The position numbers were made by a program, and so were the translations under genes. The notes beneath the pieces were generated by a model. It had not been told where the DNA came from. It saw only the letters and a list, made by a program, of their open reading frames with translations, and did not search any database. Shown here in pieces: positions 2,185 to 57,485 of a DNA stretch of 60,225 bases (the stretch's first letter is position 1; every line of letters begins with the position of its first letter). The DNA is from Deltaproteobacteria bacterium. Lineage in GTDB: Bacteria > Desulfobacterota > Syntrophia > Syntrophales > Smithellaceae. The stretch spans positions 1 to 60,225 of the forward strand of contig JAKLDS010000007.1 of the NCBI GenBank assembly GCA_022703375.1, written 5' to 3'.

Positions 2185-3258
2185 ATGTACGCAGTAATTA
2201 TGGCCGGAGGACGGGGTACGAGGTTCTGGCCGCGCAGCAGAGAAAAAAAGCCCAAGCATCTGCTGGACATCGTGAGCGCCAAAACAATAATTCGGGAAAC
2301 CGTTGACCGTATTTTGCCCTTAATCACGCCGGAAAATATATACGTTGTGACCGGTCAAAAGCACTCCCGCGCACTGATTGGCCAGCTGCCGGAAATTCCC
2401 CGCGGTAATATCCTGATTGAGCCGCAGGGTAAAAACACGGCAGCCTGCATCGGCCTGGCCGCTCTGCATATCGTGAAAAAGGCTGATGATGTGATGATTG
2501 TGCTGCCATCGGATCATGCTATTGCGGATTCCGACAGGTATCTGTCTTTGATTAAAGCAGGGGCGCAGATAGCCGCCGACAGCGATGCTTTGGTGACCAT
2601 CGGCATAAAACCGAACGGCCCGCAGACGGGATTTGGTTACATCGAGCGCGGAGAATCGGCAGGTCGTGTTGCCGGGGAAGAAGTTTTCCGCGTGCAATCT
2701 ATCCGGGAAAAGCCGCAATATGAGCAGGCGCGGGAATTTGTCGCCAGCGGCAGGTTTTACTGGAACAGCGGGATGTTCATCTGGAAGGCTTCAACGATTA
2801 TGCAGTCCATTGGAAAATGGCTGCCCGCTTTAAATGAGGGATTGCGCGAAATTAACGCGGCTCTGGGATTGCCTGCCGAAGCCGCAGTTGTGCGCCGGGT
2901 TTACCGGAAAATTGCCGCCGTCTCTATTGATTACGGTGTGATGGAAAAGGCGGATAATGTTTTTGTTCTACCGGGCGATTTCGGCTGGAGTGACGTAGGC
3001 AGCTGGGATGCCCTCTGGGAAATATCGGCGAAGGATGAGAACGGCAACGCCAATATCGGCGGCAGCGAAATTACAGTCGCGGACAGCGCTGGCTCGCTGG
3101 TTTACAGTCCGGGGAAACTGGTTGCTCTCGTCGGCGTGCATGATTTAATTGTTGTTGAAACAAAAGACGCCTTGCTGATTTGCCGCCGGGGGCAATCGCA
3201 GGATGTAAAAAAGATTGTTGATACGCTGGAATCGCAGGGCGGGAAAAAATATCTGTGA
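2185..3258 (+). CDS. manC: mannose-1-phosphate guanylyltransferase
   Basis: Makes GDP-mannose from mannose-1-phosphate and GTP, a sugar donor for surface polysaccharide. The N-terminal nucleotide-binding loop is MAGGRGTRFWPRSR, followed by the conserved KPKHLL, and WNSGMFIW is the family's substrate-site motif. At 357 residues it lacks the C-terminal phosphomannose isomerase domain of the bifunctional AlgA type, so it is the single-function short form. The ATG is preceded by AAAAAGGAGACGGGG. No other polysaccharide gene adjoins it, so its pathway is not shown here. Confidence 0.88.
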   Translation: MYAVIMAGGRGTRFWPRSREKKPKHLLDIVSAKTIIRETVDRILPLITPENIYVVTGQKHSRALIGQLPEIPRGNILIEPQGKNTAACIGLAALHIVKKADDVMIVLPSDHAIADSDRYLSLIKAGAQIAADSDALVTIGIKPNGPQTGFGYIERGESAGRVAGEEVFRVQSIREKPQYEQAREFVASGRFYWNSGMFIWKASTIMQSIGKWLPALNEGLREINAALGLPAEAAVVRRVYRKIAAVSIDYGVMEKADNVFVLPGDFGWSDVGSWDALWEISAKDENGNANIGGSEITVADSAGSLVYSPGKLVALVGVHDLIVVETKDALLICRRGQSQDVKKIVDTLESQGGKKYL

Positions 3259-3262
3259 CGGG

Positions 3263-3559
3263 TTAATTAAGAAAAACAGAATCGCCGGTGACGCGAAAGT
3301 TGCCTTTTTTCAGCGCCGCCTTTATTGCTTCCAGAGACGTTCTTTCGTTATCAAAATTAATAATTACCATATCGGGCTTCTTAATTTCATGCCTTACCAC
3401 TCCGTCAATCTTATTGAGGATGTCCCGCATCCTGGCCGCGGCCCCTCAGGCCTGGCATCCCGGCACTGTTAATCGCACAATTCTGATCTCAGCCAGAGCG
3501 TTTGCAGAAAACGAGATAAGCAGTAAGAGACACAGCAATGCGGCGATTATTTTTTTCAT
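3263..3559 (-). CDS. candidate selenoprotein: secreted heavy-metal-associated (HMA/MerP-like) protein with CxxU
   Basis: Reading the minus strand from the ATG at 3559 gives a 98-residue protein if one in-frame TGA (3446-3448, codon 38) is read as selenocysteine. Residues 1-23 are a signal peptide (MKKIIAALLC, then a hydrophobic run ending SANALA). Residues 24-98 look like a small HMA fold: IVRLTVPGCQA, the TGA, GAAARMRDILNKIDGV, then a KKPDMVIINFD strand and EAIKAALKKG helix. HMA domains bind soft metals through CxxC; here the second Cys position is the TGA, giving Cys35-x-x-Sec38. A GAGG lies 7 bases before the ATG. A hairpin fitting a bacterial SECIS follows the TGA. The end is TAA. If not selenocysteine, this is a nonsense-broken HMA gene. 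Confidence 0.72.
3417..3433 (-). promoter_or_regulatory. candidate bacterial SECIS hairpin
   Basis: On the coding (minus) strand AGGATG pairs with CATCCT around the loop CGGGA. Eighteen bases separate the TGA from the loop, within the usual bacterial window of about 16-37, and a G lies among the first two loop bases. The loop nearly matches that behind the SelW-like gene. Confidence 0.6.
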
Positions 3560-3628
3560 TGCAAACCTCAATTATTACTTGATTTAATTTCAGCAAAATC
3601 TGACTGAAAATGCAAATAGTATTTGGCG

Positions 3629-3687: not shown

Positions 3688-4281
3688 ATGTCCGCATACA
3701 AAGCAAACAGCCTGATCCTGGCTTCCGCCTCACCGCGGAGACAGGAACTGCTGGAAGCAGCTGGTTTAAACTTCCAGATTGTTCCGGCTCATGTCAATGA
3801 AGCATACCGGGAAGGTGAAACCCCCGGCTCTCACGTCAAAAGACTGGCCTGTGACAAGGCGGCAGCCGTCGCGAAGAAATATCCGGAGTCGTGGGTGCTG
3901 GGCGCTGATACAATCGTTGTTATTGATGATATGATTTTAGGCAAGCCGAAAAGCAGGATGCAGGCGAAGCGGATGCTGGAGCGTCTCAGCGGCAGGTTTC
4001 ACAAAGTATTCACAGGATTTGCCGTTGTCCGGGCTGCCGCGCACATACAAAAAGCGAAAATCATTCAGACGTCTGTGCAATTTAAAAAAATCAATCCGCA
4101 GGAAATGGAATGGTATATCTCCTGTCCCGAACCTTACGACAAGGCCGGAGGATATGCCGCTCAGGGCCGGGGAGCCTGCTTTATCAAGTCGCTGCGCGGT
4201 TCCTACACCAATGTTATCGGTCTGCCGGTTTGCGAAGTTATGGACGAGCTGGAACAACTGGGGGCAATACAATTAAAGTGA
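3688..4281 (+). CDS. maf: Maf-family nucleotide pyrophosphatase
   Basis: A 197-residue Maf protein. The N-terminal phosphate-binding motif is ILASASPRRQELL, and the central LGADTIV carries the catalytic acidic residue of the family. Family members hydrolyse non-canonical or pyrimidine nucleoside triphosphates (dTTP/UTP, or m7GTP in the YceF type) in the cytoplasm, and were first noted for septation effects. The subtype cannot be fixed by eye. Its stop lies 6 bases before the PLP-homeostasis gene, so the two are probably co-transcribed from the promoter just upstream. Confidence 0.88.
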   Translation: MSAYKANSLILASASPRRQELLEAAGLNFQIVPAHVNEAYREGETPGSHVKRLACDKAAAVAKKYPESWVLGADTIVVIDDMILGKPKSRMQAKRMLERLSGRFHKVFTGFAVVRAAAHIQKAKIIQTSVQFKKINPQEMEWYISCPEPYDKAGGYAAQGRGACFIKSLRGSYTNVIGLPVCEVMDELEQLGAIQLK

Positions 4282-47608: not shown

Positions 47609-48832
47609 ATGGATTTTGTGCCGAAAGCCCGGGAAAGAATATGTCAACTGCTCAATCGCGGTGTGGACATTCCCAATCCGGAAACAATAGATATCGGGTC
47701 TGAAGTCAATATTGAACAGATCGCCGCAAAGGATGTAAAAATATATCCGGGATGCCGCCTTTACGGCGGCAAAACGGTCATCTCTGCGGGATGCCGGCTG
47801 GGCCATGAGGCGCCGGTGACGATTGAAGACTGCCAGCTGGGAGAAAAAGTTGAGCTCAAGGGCGGTTTTTTCTCCGGTTCGGTTTTTCTCGAAAAGGCGA
47901 ATATGGGCATGGGCGCACATGTGCGGGAAGCGTCAATTCTCGAAGAGCAAGCCTCCGGCGCCCACTGTGTGGGATTAAAACAAACCATCCTTTTTCCGTT
48001 TGTCACACTGGGCAGTTTAATAAACTTCTGTGATTGTCTGATGTCCGGCGGCACCAGCCGCCAGAATCACAGCGAGGTCGGCAGTTCCTATATTCATTTC
48101 AACTTTACACCGGACGCCGATAAAACAACTCCATCCCTGCTGGGCGATGTTCCCCGGGGCGTGATGTTGAACCAGCCGCCGATTTTTCTGGGCGGTCAGG
48201 GAGGTATTATCGGTCCTGTACGATTAGGTTATGGCAATGTTGTGGCGGCGGGATCCATTTTGCGGCATGATTATCCGGAAGACAATAAGCTGATTTGCGA
48301 AACGGGTAATGCCGGAAATATCAAGAATTATGTCAAGACGCTTTACCCCAATATCGGGCGGGTGGTGGAAAATAACATCATTTATCTGGCCAATCTGACG
48401 GCACTGGAGGCCTGGTATACTGACATCAGAAAGCCATTTATGGAAAGCCGGCCTTTGGGCAATCTTATTTATGCCGGCGCAATGGAAAAGCTTTCTCTTG
48501 CAAAGAAGGAACGCAGCAAAAGATTAAAAGCGCTGGCGGAAAAAGCCTCTGCATCGGGCAGGAGAGAACTTCAGGAACAGATGGCTTTTATTGAAGGAAT
48601 ATTTGTCGGCAGGTTTGCGGCGGAATCTCCGGATGTTAAAAAATACCGCGATGCATTTCTGCAGGGATTCGCCAAAGCCGCAGGTCGCAGCAAGGATGAT
48701 TATATCGAGACAATCCAGGGCCTGCCTGCGGCTGTTTCGGTAAAAGGCGTCAAGTGGTTGGCCTCTTTGGTGGATGATATCTGTAATAAGGTCCGGAAGG
48801 TGATGCCTTCTGTGTATCAGGGGAAACGTTGA
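47609..48832 (+). CDS. left-handed beta-helix protein (sugar-nucleotide/acyltransferase-like)
   Basis: 407 residues. Hexapeptide-like turns mark a left-handed beta-helix: ISAGCRLGHEAPVTIEDCQL, then GSVFLEKANMGMGAHVREAS, IIGPVRLGYGNVVAAGSIL. The C-terminal 150 residues are helical. Similar proteins are annotated as GlmU/UDP-GlcNAc pyrophosphorylase relatives, but the N-terminal pyrophosphorylase domain and its GxG loop are missing, so acyl transfer or a structural role is likelier. AGGGAGG precedes the ATG. It overlaps glmM copy 1 by one base (TGATG), suggesting joint work on an amino sugar phosphate. Confidence 0.7.
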   Translation: MDFVPKARERICQLLNRGVDIPNPETIDIGSEVNIEQIAAKDVKIYPGCRLYGGKTVISAGCRLGHEAPVTIEDCQLGEKVELKGGFFSGSVFLEKANMGMGAHVREASILEEQASGAHCVGLKQTILFPFVTLGSLINFCDCLMSGGTSRQNHSEVGSSYIHFNFTPDADKTTPSLLGDVPRGVMLNQPPIFLGGQGGIIGPVRLGYGNVVAAGSILRHDYPEDNKLICETGNAGNIKNYVKTLYPNIGRVVENNIIYLANLTALEAWYTDIRKPFMESRPLGNLIYAGAMEKLSLAKKERSKRLKALAEKASASGRRELQEQMAFIEGIFVGRFAAESPDVKKYRDAFLQGFAKAAGRSKDDYIETIQGLPAAVSVKGVKWLASLVDDICNKVRKVMPSVYQGKR

Positions 48833-50187
48833 TGGGTAAGATATTCGGCACTGATGGAATACGGGGAGCGGCCAATCGCTATCCGATGAATGCCGAGATT
48901 GCCTTTGGCGTCGGGCAATCCATTGCTTACCTGTTCAAAAAAAACAAACACCGCGCCCACGTTATTATCGGTAAGGATACGCGAATTTCCGGTTACATGC
49001 TGGAAAGTTCACTGGAAGCGGGCATTACCTCGATGGGCGGATACGCCTATCTGGTGGGTGTGCTGACGACGCCGGGGATTGCCTTTATTACTCAAAGCAT
49101 GCGGGCGGATGCCGGTATTGTGATATCCGCATCACATAATTACTTTGAGGATAACGGACTGAAAATATTCGGCAGAGACGGTTTTAAGCTGAGCGACGCC
49201 GAGGAAGAGCAAATTGAAGATTTAATTCTTAATAATAAGTTGTCGGAACTTCTGCCGACAGCTGGCGGCATGGGCAAAGCCACGCGGATTGACGATGTTC
49301 ATGGACGCTACATTGTCTTTCTGAAAAACACCTTTCCCCGCAATTTATCCATGGAGGGCATGAAGATTGTTCTGGATACCGCCCATGGTGCGGCCTATAA
49401 AGTGGCGCCCGCAGCTTTTTTTGAACTCGGCGCCGAAGTGGAAGTCATTCATAATACGCCGGACGGGGTTAATATCAACGATCAATGCGGCTCTCAACAT
49501 ACGGAATCACTGCGCAAAAAAGTGGTGGAAACCGGCGCAGCAATCGGCCTGGCATTCGATGGTGACGGCGATCGCCTGATTGCCGTTGATGAAAAGGGCA
49601 AAGAGATTACAGGAGACCAGCTTCTCATAATCTGTGCTAATATGTTGAAAAAAGAAGGCCGGATGAAAAACGATTTTCTTGTGACGACGGTGATGAGCAA
49701 TCTGGGTTTGCGGCTGGCCTGCAAAAAATACGGATTCCGGCATCATGCCTCGCCGGTCGGCGACCGCTACGTTCTGGAAGACATGCTGCGGCTGGGCGCG
49801 GTAATCGGTGGCGAAGATTCGGGGCACATGATTTTTCTCGATCATCATACAACCGGCGACGGTATCCTGGCGGCCATGCAACTTGTTGCTGCAATGGCGC
49901 AGTCAGGCAAGCCTCTTTCGGAACTGGCGTGCCAGATGGAAATATTTCCGCAGAAACTGATTAATGTTCCCGTGGCTTGCAGACCGGAAATTGTCTCGCT
50001 TGGCAAAGTTGCGGCGGCGGTAAAGCAGGCCGAACGCGAACTGGCAGATGAAGGCCGCGTGCTGGTTCGCTATTCCGGAACGGAAAATGTCTGCCGCGTT
50101 ATGGTGGAAGCCCCCAGTAATGAACTGGCGCAAAAACATTGCCAGAACATCGCTGATGCTGTGAAAAGTGAAATAGGAAAATTTTGA
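48832..50187 (+). CDS. glmM: phosphoglucosamine mutase paralog 1
   Basis: 451 residues. The four phosphohexomutase loops are visible: the phosphoserine loop GIVISASHNYFEDNG, metal loop AFDGDGDRLIAVD, sugar loop GGEDSGHM and phosphate loop RYSGTENVCRVMVEA. The serine loop has Tyr where most members have Pro (SASHNP). GlmM converts glucosamine-6-phosphate to glucosamine-1-phosphate for peptidoglycan and lipid A. By eye it is about half identical to the second copy at 52.9 kb, which keeps the canonical loop. This copy may use a different substrate. Confidence 0.88.
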   Translation: MGKIFGTDGIRGAANRYPMNAEIAFGVGQSIAYLFKKNKHRAHVIIGKDTRISGYMLESSLEAGITSMGGYAYLVGVLTTPGIAFITQSMRADAGIVISASHNYFEDNGLKIFGRDGFKLSDAEEEQIEDLILNNKLSELLPTAGGMGKATRIDDVHGRYIVFLKNTFPRNLSMEGMKIVLDTAHGAAYKVAPAAFFELGAEVEVIHNTPDGVNINDQCGSQHTESLRKKVVETGAAIGLAFDGDGDRLIAVDEKGKEITGDQLLIICANMLKKEGRMKNDFLVTTVMSNLGLRLACKKYGFRHHASPVGDRYVLEDMLRLGAVIGGEDSGHMIFLDHHTTGDGILAAMQLVAAMAQSGKPLSELACQMEIFPQKLINVPVACRPEIVSLGKVAAAVKQAERELADEGRVLVRYSGTENVCRVMVEAPSNELAQKHCQNIADAVKSEIGKF

Positions 50188-52859: not shown

Positions 52860-54209
52860 ATGGGAAAATTATTTGGAACTGACGGAATAAGAGGCGTGGC
52901 CAATGAATATCCGATGACCGCCGATCTGGCGCTGAATGTCGGCAAAGCCACAGCGCATTTTTTCAAACGCAAGGGTCATCATCCCCGGATCATTATCGGC
53001 AAGGATACCCGCATCTCCGGGTACATGATTGAAAACGCGCTGGTCTCCGGTCTGTGCTCGATGGGTGTGGATGCAATCATGGTCGGCGTCATGCCGACAC
53101 CGGGCATTGCCTTTCTGACTCAGAGTATGCGGGTGGATGCCGGCATTGTCATTTCCGCTTCCCACAATCCCTATCAGGATAACGGCATTAAGATATTTTC
53201 CAATGACGGTTACAAGCTCCCCGATGAAACGGAACTGGCAATTGAAGATTTGATACTCAAGGACGGCATGAAAAAACTGCATCCGTCACCGCAGGAACTC
53301 GGCAAGGCTTTCCGGATTGAAGGCGCCATTGACCGCTATATCGTTTTCCTGAAAAGCGTTTTCCCGAAAGAGCTGACGCTGGAGGGCATGAATATTGAAC
53401 TTGACTGCGCCAACGGCGCCACCTATCGCGTTGCCCCGCAGACTTTTATGGAGCTGGGCGCCAATGTCACCGCCCGTTTCGATCAGCCCAACGGAACAAA
53501 TATCAACGACAATTGCGGTTCGCAGCATACCGACATGCTGGTGGAAAAGCTTTTAAAGAGAAAAGCCGATGTCGGTTTTGCCTTTGACGGCGACGGCGAC
53601 CGGCTGATTGCCGTGGACGAAAAGGGCAATGTCCTGACCGGCGACCAGATTATCGCTGTCTGCGCCAAACACATGAAGGCCAAAGGCAAGCTGACCAATA
53701 ATCTTGTCGTGGCGACGGTGATGAGCAATCTCGGTTTGCGCCAGGCGATGAAACCACTGGGGATCGATATTACCACAACAAAAGTCGGCGACCGCTATGT
53801 CCTCGAAGAAATGAAAGCCAAAGGCGCGGCCATCGGCGGCGAGGAATCCGGACATATTATTTTCCTGCAGGATCATACCACCGGTGACGGCATTCTTTCG
53901 GCTATTCAATTGCTGATTGTCATGAAGGAACAAAATAAGCCTCTGTCCGAACTGGCGAAAGTAATGAAAGTATTTCCGCAGAAGATGATCAATATTGATG
54001 TAAAAGCAAAACCGGAAATCAATACTCTGCCAGCCGTTGTCAAGGCTATCGCGGATGTGGAAAAAATTCTGCAGGACAAGGGCCGGGTGCTGGTGCGCTA
54101 TTCGGGAACGCAGAACATGTGCCGCGTCATGGTCGAAGGGCCGACGAACGAGGAAACCGAAAAATACTGCCGCCAGATAGCGGACGTCGTGACAAAAACA
54201 ATCGGATAA
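52860..54209 (+). CDS. glmM: phosphoglucosamine mutase paralog 2 (canonical)
   Basis: 449 residues with unaltered loops: serine loop GIVISASHNPYQDNG, metal loop AFDGDGDRLIAVDE, sugar loop GGEESGHI, phosphate loop RYSGTQNMCRVMVEG. This copy is the better candidate for the housekeeping GlmM. AAAAGGAG precedes the ATG. It follows pyrG by 48 bases and closes the rightward amino-sugar run. Confidence 0.93.
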   Translation: MGKLFGTDGIRGVANEYPMTADLALNVGKATAHFFKRKGHHPRIIIGKDTRISGYMIENALVSGLCSMGVDAIMVGVMPTPGIAFLTQSMRVDAGIVISASHNPYQDNGIKIFSNDGYKLPDETELAIEDLILKDGMKKLHPSPQELGKAFRIEGAIDRYIVFLKSVFPKELTLEGMNIELDCANGATYRVAPQTFMELGANVTARFDQPNGTNINDNCGSQHTDMLVEKLLKRKADVGFAFDGDGDRLIAVDEKGNVLTGDQIIAVCAKHMKAKGKLTNNLVVATVMSNLGLRQAMKPLGIDITTTKVGDRYVLEEMKAKGAAIGGEESGHIIFLQDHTTGDGILSAIQLLIVMKEQNKPLSELAKVMKVFPQKMINIDVKAKPEINTLPAVVKAIADVEKILQDKGRVLVRYSGTQNMCRVMVEGPTNEETEKYCRQIADVVTKTIG

Positions 54210-55961: not shown

Positions 55962-57485
55962 TCAACCGGAAGCATTGAAACGGATGAAAAATACGGTACC
56001 CTGGGACGGAATGGACTTGACCCGAATCATTCCGCCGTGTTCCTTGATTATCTTCCGGCAGATGGCCAGACCCAGGCCGACGCCTCTTTCCTTTGTTGTA
56101 TAAAACGGCTTAAAAATATTTTTTATCTGTTCATCGTTCATTCCCTGTCCGGTATCACGGATGGTTATGCCGACAGCCCGGCCGGCGTTCGACTCTATCC
56201 TGGCCGTGCGAAAAGTCAGCGAGCCGCCCTGTGGCATGGCTTCAATGGCGTTGAGGGCTATATTTAATATCACCTGGATCATCTGTTCTTCGTCGATATC
56301 CACCAGCGGGATGTCGTCATGCAGTTCCTTTTCTATTTTCAAGACGCTGGTGAGATGATTGACCGCAATAATGGAAATCGCTTTTTCGATTATGGGATTG
56401 ACGCTCTGAAGGCGAATATTCAGCTTTTGCGGCCGCGCGTAATTGAGAAATTTGTTGACGACGGAATTAAGTCTGTTTACTTCTTCGATTATGACATTAA
56501 GCAGTTTTTTGTGTTCTTCGGATACTGCTTCTCCTTCCAGGTATTGAGCTGCTCCCTTTATCGAGCCCAGCGGATTGCGGATTTCGTGAGCGAGGACCGG
56601 AGCCATCTCCGCCAGCAGCAGGGTTTTTTCTCTTTCCAGCTTTTCATCAAACTCATAAAGCGAAGTAAAAACATCCTGGCTGGCCGGATAAAAGAAGCTG
56701 AAGATTTTTTTCAGAATCATCTTCAGCGGGCTCAACGAAATGACAATCAGCAGGGACGCCATCACCACGATAGTGAAGGAGGGCAGCGGGCCGTCACTGA
56801 AAAAAACGGCGACCAGATAGAATATTATTGTTCCGGCCAGAGTGCTCACCATAATTATCAGGGCGCGGGCCAGAAAATCGTGGAATTCATGGAGCTGAGG
56901 ATAGGCGATAATCAACAGAAGGAAATAAAGCAACGCGGCGATAATGAGGCCGGAGACGGCGGGAAAGGAAAAGCCGAAATAACTCAAAACATCAAAACTG
57001 CTCAGGAGCGCCGCCAGAGGGCAGACATAAATAAGGTAGCCCAGGCGTTTTTTTTCCGTACTGGGCGGAAGTTTTTTTATATAAATCAACAATGCCAGAT
57101 AGCTCAAACCGAGAAGGCAATAAACGTAAATCAGTAAAGCTTCCTCGAAATATGGCCAGCGGGGCAGTGCGGTAAAAAGAGAAATGCCGCCGATGATGCT
57201 GAGAAAAACAAAGAAAAAAACAAGCCCGCGGGAAATAAAAGTTTTCTTTTGCGTAAGCTGGCGCGTAAACCACAAAGTCAGCGGCGCTATCGCCAGCATT
57301 CCCAGATACTCAATAGTTTTCCAGAAACCGGCGGCAAATATGCTCTGGAAAAAAATGCCGGTTTGTGAAAGAAAGACGGCGGCGCAAAGCGCAACAAAAG
57401 ATGTCAGCAGCTTATCTTTTCTGCCGGTAATGATTAAGGAAATTGCAATGATGAAACTTGCAGCCGCCAGTGTAAAGGAGTCCAT
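55962..57485 (-). CDS. membrane histidine kinase, partner of the NtrC-type regulator
   Basis: 507 residues. Residues 1-265 contain about eight or nine membrane helices with little loop sequence, then a linker. The H box is APVLAHEIRNPLGSIKG, the N box is NIALNAIEAMPQGG and the G boxes are IRDTGQGMN and RGVGLGLAICRKIIKE, giving a complete NtrB-like kinase core. No PAS or periplasmic sensor domain is seen, so the membrane part itself probably senses the signal. Its stop lies 50 bases from the regulator start. Confidence 0.9.
   Translation of the reverse strand: MDSFTLAAASFIIAISLIITGRKDKLLTSFVALCAAVFLSQTGIFFQSIFAAGFWKTIEYLGMLAIAPLTLWFTRQLTQKKTFISRGLVFFFVFLSIIGGISLFTALPRWPYFEEALLIYVYCLLGLSYLALLIYIKKLPPSTEKKRLGYLIYVCPLAALLSSFDVLSYFGFSFPAVSGLIIAALLYFLLLIIAYPQLHEFHDFLARALIIMVSTLAGTIIFYLVAVFFSDGPLPSFTIVVMASLLIVISLSPLKMILKKIFSFFYPASQDVFTSLYEFDEKLEREKTLLLAEMAPVLAHEIRNPLGSIKGAAQYLEGEAVSEEHKKLLNVIIEEVNRLNSVVNKFLNYARPQKLNIRLQSVNPIIEKAISIIAVNHLTSVLKIEKELHDDIPLVDIDEEQMIQVILNIALNAIEAMPQGGSLTFRTARIESNAGRAVGITIRDTGQGMNDEQIKNIFKPFYTTKERGVGLGLAICRKIIKEHGGMIRVKSIPSQGTVFFIRFNASG

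Follow-up and report, generated by a model that had tools for sequence, protein, structure and literature searches.

A putatively exported HMA-fold selenoprotein of Syntrophales with selenocysteine likely displaced from the canonical metal site

The window, the whole stretch of DNA that was analysed (60 225 nt of contig JAKLDS010000007.1, Smithellaceae), carries on its minus strand a short gene with one in-frame TGA. The gene and its immediate surroundings contain the following features.

3263..3559, minus strand: selenoprotein gene of 98 codons and a TAA stop, with one in-frame TGA decoded as Sec (reading frame and homologues)
3566..3569, minus strand: ribosome-binding site GAGG, 7–10 nt 5' of the ATG (sequence)
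3559-3557, minus strand: start codon ATG (sequence)
3491..3559, minus strand: predicted signal peptide, codons 1–23, with MKK, a hydrophobic core and ALA before E24 (sequence; same layout in relatives)
3266..3490, minus strand: HMA-fold domain, predicted β-α-β-β-α-β (AlphaFold2 model; Foldseek, VIA and profile matches)
3455..3457, minus strand: codon for Cys35 of the C-x-x-U motif (sequence)
3446..3448, minus strand: TGA codon for Sec38 (sequence; same position in homologues)
3417..3433, minus strand: bSECIS-type hairpin AGGATG-CGGGA-CATCCT over codons R43–L48 (sequence and covariation)
3265-3263, minus strand: stop codon TAA (sequence)
3688-4281: maf, divergent from the selenoprotein gene
2185-3258: manC-like gene, convergent with the selenoprotein gene

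The frame from the ATG at 3559 to the TAA at 3265-3263 is open apart from the single TGA, and with that codon read as Sec it translates as MKKIIAALLCLLLLISFSANALAEIRIVRLTVPGCQAUGAAARMRDILNKIDGVVRHEIKKPDMVIINFDNERTSLEAIKAALKKGNFRVTGDSVFLN. Beyond the presumed cleavage point ALA|E, which was placed from the sequence itself, the mature part runs through RIVRLTVPG-C-Q-A-U-GAAARMRDILNK into an HMA-like remainder. Ribosome sites of the AGGT/GAGG type precede the gene in most relatives. The plus-strand translation of 3263-3559 is unrelated. An initial annotation had described an HMA-like selenoprotein here with a TGA at 3446-3448, a ribosome site, a frame running to TAA and a 6-bp hairpin with loop CGGGA at 18 bases; all of these are present, on the minus strand, and its expectation that standard gene calls would miss or break the gene holds, as an expectation, given the internal TGA.

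Contig searches with the single protein returned no relatives and a too-diverse alignment was unsuitable, whereas a tighter alignment retrieved them. Relatives with names belong to Smithella, other Syntrophaceae and deltaproteobacterial metagenome assemblies. A homologue is present in 48 of 59 related genomes, nearly all with TGA at the same codon, and in 107 of the 155 genomes of the order. Distant members exist within the phylum outside Syntrophales; most of the weak matches across the phylum come from HMA domains within ORFs of 700–950 codons, an ATPase-like size, and fall outside the family. Plasmid records yielded merP only, at approximately 33% identity. In nearly all family members examined the selenoprotein gene stands alone between maf and the manC-like gene, and maf, manC-like and YggS-like genes occur together in 26 of 29 clustered neighbourhoods (counted per gene cluster, the window included). 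Because of this shared neighbourhood the gene is, as judged from gene order, an old chromosomal resident outside any mercury cassette.

Some further observations concern individual loci. One family member, L117 (JAHIYH010000063.1), lies on a contig assigned to a Patescibacteria assembly, probably through misbinning. Another homologue (L121, G525:C26) lacks both Sec and Cys at this site, where it reads VPAIVSLETA, and is perhaps a degenerate copy. Elsewhere in the window, two similar phosphoglucosamine-mutase-like genes (48829-50187 and 52860-54209) flank CTP-synthase-like and glucosamine-phosphate-isomerase-like genes, and a histidine-kinase-like ORF (55962-57485) resembles the neighbour of the Cys-containing paralogue L054; the window genome itself lacks a Cys paralogue.

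The window genome (2.57 Mb in 120 contigs) encodes selA (614 bits), selB (379 bits) and a tRNA-Sec with anticodon UCA, and its selD (L159, G000:C31:20462-21391) is itself a selenoprotein gene, carrying an in-frame TGA at the usual place (motif AGUACK, within AGUACKIGPGD). Lack of selA, selB and selC had been named beforehand as grounds for abandoning a selenoprotein, and the genome contains all three as well as selD. Among the related genomes selA was found in 58 of 59, those without the selenoprotein gene included. A reassigned code with TGA as Trp was rejected on the presence of tRNA-Sec(UCA) and the fact that the neighbouring manC and maf genes end in TGA.

The TGA recurs at the same place in dozens of species, in assemblies that are independent of one another. 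Exactly one in-frame TGA is found in 111 of the 121 matching places listed for the order, and none in the other 10 (counted by hand from the order-wide search of 155 genomes); inspection of 50 loci, of which 49 were aligned, and of a further 40 confirmed the TGA at the motif. Relatives thus carry TGA where a sequencing error in a CxxC gene would have left them with Cys. The codons on both sides of the TGA are under purifying selection, with pN/pS of 0.29 before it and 0.37 after it, synonymous sites being near saturation.

Downstream of the TGA, the window copy of the hairpin has 6 bp, a loop CGGGA beginning 18 nt past the TGA and a folding energy of −6.5 kcal/mol over 30 nt; across aligned family members the loop starts 21–25 nt from the UGA. 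Taken alone, the window hairpin shows no exceptional stability (z = −0.70 for 46 nt), and the fold of lowest energy is another structure, so that its significance derives from sequence comparison and not from the stability of this copy. In a gap-free alignment of 48 sequences anchored on the Arg of the R43–L48 stretch, 96% of the cells in a 7-bp stem are paired, none of 500 shuffles is as good, and double-sided changes occur in six of the seven stem pairs (22 cells). Sliding the pairing partner abolishes the signal. This covariation bears out the bSECIS-type hairpin of the initial annotation. Both Cys paralogues aligned (L054 and L057, GCADC) are devoid of the hairpin; L057 retains the RIGAIL peptide via other codons, yet without the hairpin.

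Taken together, the Sec machinery, the conserved TGA, the purifying selection and the covarying hairpin are four independent lines of sequence evidence that the TGA of the window gene is a genuine selenocysteine codon. The locus almost certainly encodes an exported HMA-fold selenoprotein, with its UGA decoded under the direction of a hairpin embedded in the codons that follow it. That the TGA arose by a sequencing error, or is the stop of a decayed HMA gene, draws on nothing beyond the failure of the window hairpin alone to beat shuffles, and we reject it as exceedingly improbable in view of the same TGA in independent assemblies, the covariation and the purifying selection downstream of the codon.

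AlphaFold2 with 49 homologues predicts the fold with pLDDT 88 and the order E25-31, H40-50, E54-60, E64-70, H76-85, E91-96, with Sec in the loop that joins strand 1 to helix 1. Foldseek and VIA-align match the model to the HMA domains of CopA, HMA7, Atx1, CopZ and MerP (VIA Z 11–12), and profile searches give CopA at 2e-13 and MerP at 2.9e-9. The window protein has no match to PF00403 (HMA) up to E 10, its only Pfam matches being sub-threshold and meaningless, and reaches no NCBIfam model (June 2026) at cut-off; the closest is MerP TIGR02052, at 42 bits vs 92.55. Each of the 49 aligned members hits the MerP model at a sub-threshold score. PF00403 is passed by one fused member of the family, L062 (33.9 bits vs gathering 24.8). 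With signal peptide, HMA fold and conserved TGA in place, the exported HMA-fold protein with Sec proposed at the outset is upheld, export being predicted from the sequence.

The position of the Sec is another matter. The initial annotation took the TGA for the second metal-site cysteine of the HMA domain. In the ungapped HMMER alignment to MerP, however, G34 falls on Gly11, C35 on Met12 and U38 on Ser15, and MerP Cys14 and Cys17 lie opposite window residues 37 and 40. Structural ranges are consistent with this register (24-95 vs MerP 1-72), whereas hhalign, once gaps are introduced, can superpose CxxU on CxxC. The GMxCxxC metal site is not present in the window protein, which has PGCxxU instead, and the Cys/Sec pair probably sits some two residues away from where HMA domains have CxxC.

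The motif itself varies. CxU forms (L060, L062, L065, L066, L077 and others) have Sec on the first HMA cysteine, and still other members have no Cys near the Sec at all (YDSU in L063, PGVVU in L079-L081, SGGU in L078). True Cys replacements are few (L054 and L057, with CxC in L119 and L120). As the alignments have it, the constant feature is Sec rather than Cys.

What the Sec does was put earlier as a choice between metal and redox roles for a periplasmic Cys-Sec protein. The exported selenoprotein stands, as predicted; a metal role is possible and redox chemistry is slightly favoured. The favoured reading, to which we give even chances, is that Sec provides a selenol for redox or nucleophilic chemistry on the outer side of the cytoplasmic membrane; export, chemistry and substrate are all deduced indirectly. 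In the CxxU and CxU forms the nearby Cys would close a selenenylsulfide with Sec, and in members without Cys an external thiol would do so. Selenol chemistry is slightly preferred over soft-metal binding because the pair is displaced from the metal site, shows the variable spacing of redox motifs and can lose its Cys; a single reactive selenol fits the CxxU, CxU and Cys-less forms better than a two-ligand metal clamp. The same preference draws on gene fusions and context. In L062 (1057-1791) and L154 a CxU HMA domain is fused to a thioredoxin-like domain, in which the CxxC has degenerated to SPDS or CPDS, and in L060 a pyridine nucleotide-disulphide oxidoreductase gene (76-1437) lies directly 5' of the CxU family member, the two probably forming one transcript. 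These hints come from few, distant members; the gene of the window's own family stands alone between maf and the manC-like gene. The nearest named relatives moreover bind metals (MerP, 42 bits on TIGR02052; plasmid merP, 33% identity), and selenocysteine binds mercury and other soft metals very well.

Soft-metal binding is accordingly still a strong rival, given the fold, the resemblance to MerP and the established high affinity that selenolates have for soft metals. Here a Cys thiolate and the Sec selenolate would grip Hg, Cu, Ag or Cd in the loop, as the cysteines of MerP and CopZ do, and the protein would be a binding or carrier selenoprotein; we regard this as a serious contender, held at less than even chances. 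Besides the HMA fold and the match of 49 of 49 aligned members to the MerP model, albeit sub-cut-off, it has in its favour the other predicted Sec-containing metal proteins, namely the MerT-like C/SxxU protein, NF041115 with UxxU (PMC13188914) and NF045683. It has to accommodate a Cys/Sec pair two residues off the canonical site, relatives that retain Sec without Cys, and a window-family gene that lies outside metal operons, with no mer partners such as MerT beside it. In the window genome no further HMA domain was recognised, by a search that detected 13 of 14 controls, and P1B-type ATPases gave a single sub-cut-off match, whatever the length considered. The MerT search of this genome gave no match, in a search that detected no positive control either.

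Some other role for Sec on the HMA fold, such as a part in the extracytoplasmic handling of selenide, persulfide or comparable selenium or sulfur species, is improbable. Sec being more constant than Cys would suit it, as would the rhodanese-domain genes near L079 and L080, but the rhodanese link is limited to these two closely related, distant members and has no counterpart in the window's family.

Of the named families, MerP (TIGR02052; 1osd, 1afi) is the best sequence relative. It shares with the window protein the signal peptide, the HMA fold and roughly the length, as well as V-P-G ahead of the site and FDD.KT following strand 3. Unlike MerP, with its GMTCxxC, the window protein has Cys and Sec at G+1 and G+4 (G+3 in some members) and no Cys at G+6, and its gene has no adjacent mer genes. 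NF041115, the UxxU metal-binding (seleno)protein, is likewise an HMA-type selenoprotein of the same wider group but has two Sec at the canonical GMxUxxU, whereas the window protein has one and scores 16.5 bits vs the cut-off of 95. A two-TGA HMA protein of the same phylum, L084 (1504-1767; GMIUPAU), resembles NF041115, though below cut-off (80.8 bits vs 95), and looks clearly different from the window family. The PF02411 MerT-like C/SxxU and NF045683 MerT/CopZ fusion-like selenoproteins also have Sec in a heavy-metal transport setting and a C/SxxU motif, but are membrane proteins or fusions and not single exported HMA domains.

A 2026 selenoprotein review (PMC13188914) lists 119 families, none of them consisting of one exported HMA domain with CxxU; it has related entries in the UxxU metal-binding family, the MerT-like C/SxxU protein and a ZntA-type ATPase. 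A marine survey of 2008 (GOS, PMC2398784) lists two sequences of a 'Mercuric transport protein MerP' selenoprotein, for which it gives no Cys homologues; this entry was not carried into the 2026 inventory. As a MerP-like protein with Sec it resembles the window family, at the level of this listing, which gives the comparison neither sequence nor motif, and it may be an early sighting of the family. The window family is not described in the open literature searched, and the comparisons in sequence support it well as a distinct HMA-fold selenoprotein family.

These results add an order-wide selenoprotein family that is absent from the 2026 inventory and from NCBIfam (June 2026) and whose genes standard calls would be expected to truncate. 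The RIGxIL codons are under a double constraint, from the peptide and from the RNA hairpin, the RNA constraint being released in the two Cys paralogues aligned. The family also amounts to a natural experiment for Sec on an HMA scaffold, with Sec kept while the Cys partner and the spacing vary. A broader scenario, which we advance tentatively and somewhat short of even odds, is that in Syntrophales a MerP-like domain lost its two-Cys metal site and gained Sec at a neighbouring loop position, becoming a conserved exported selenol enzyme in which the essential residue is Sec and not Cys, and of which thioredoxin-fused versions exist. If true, a metal-carrier fold would have been turned into a selenium-based catalyst.
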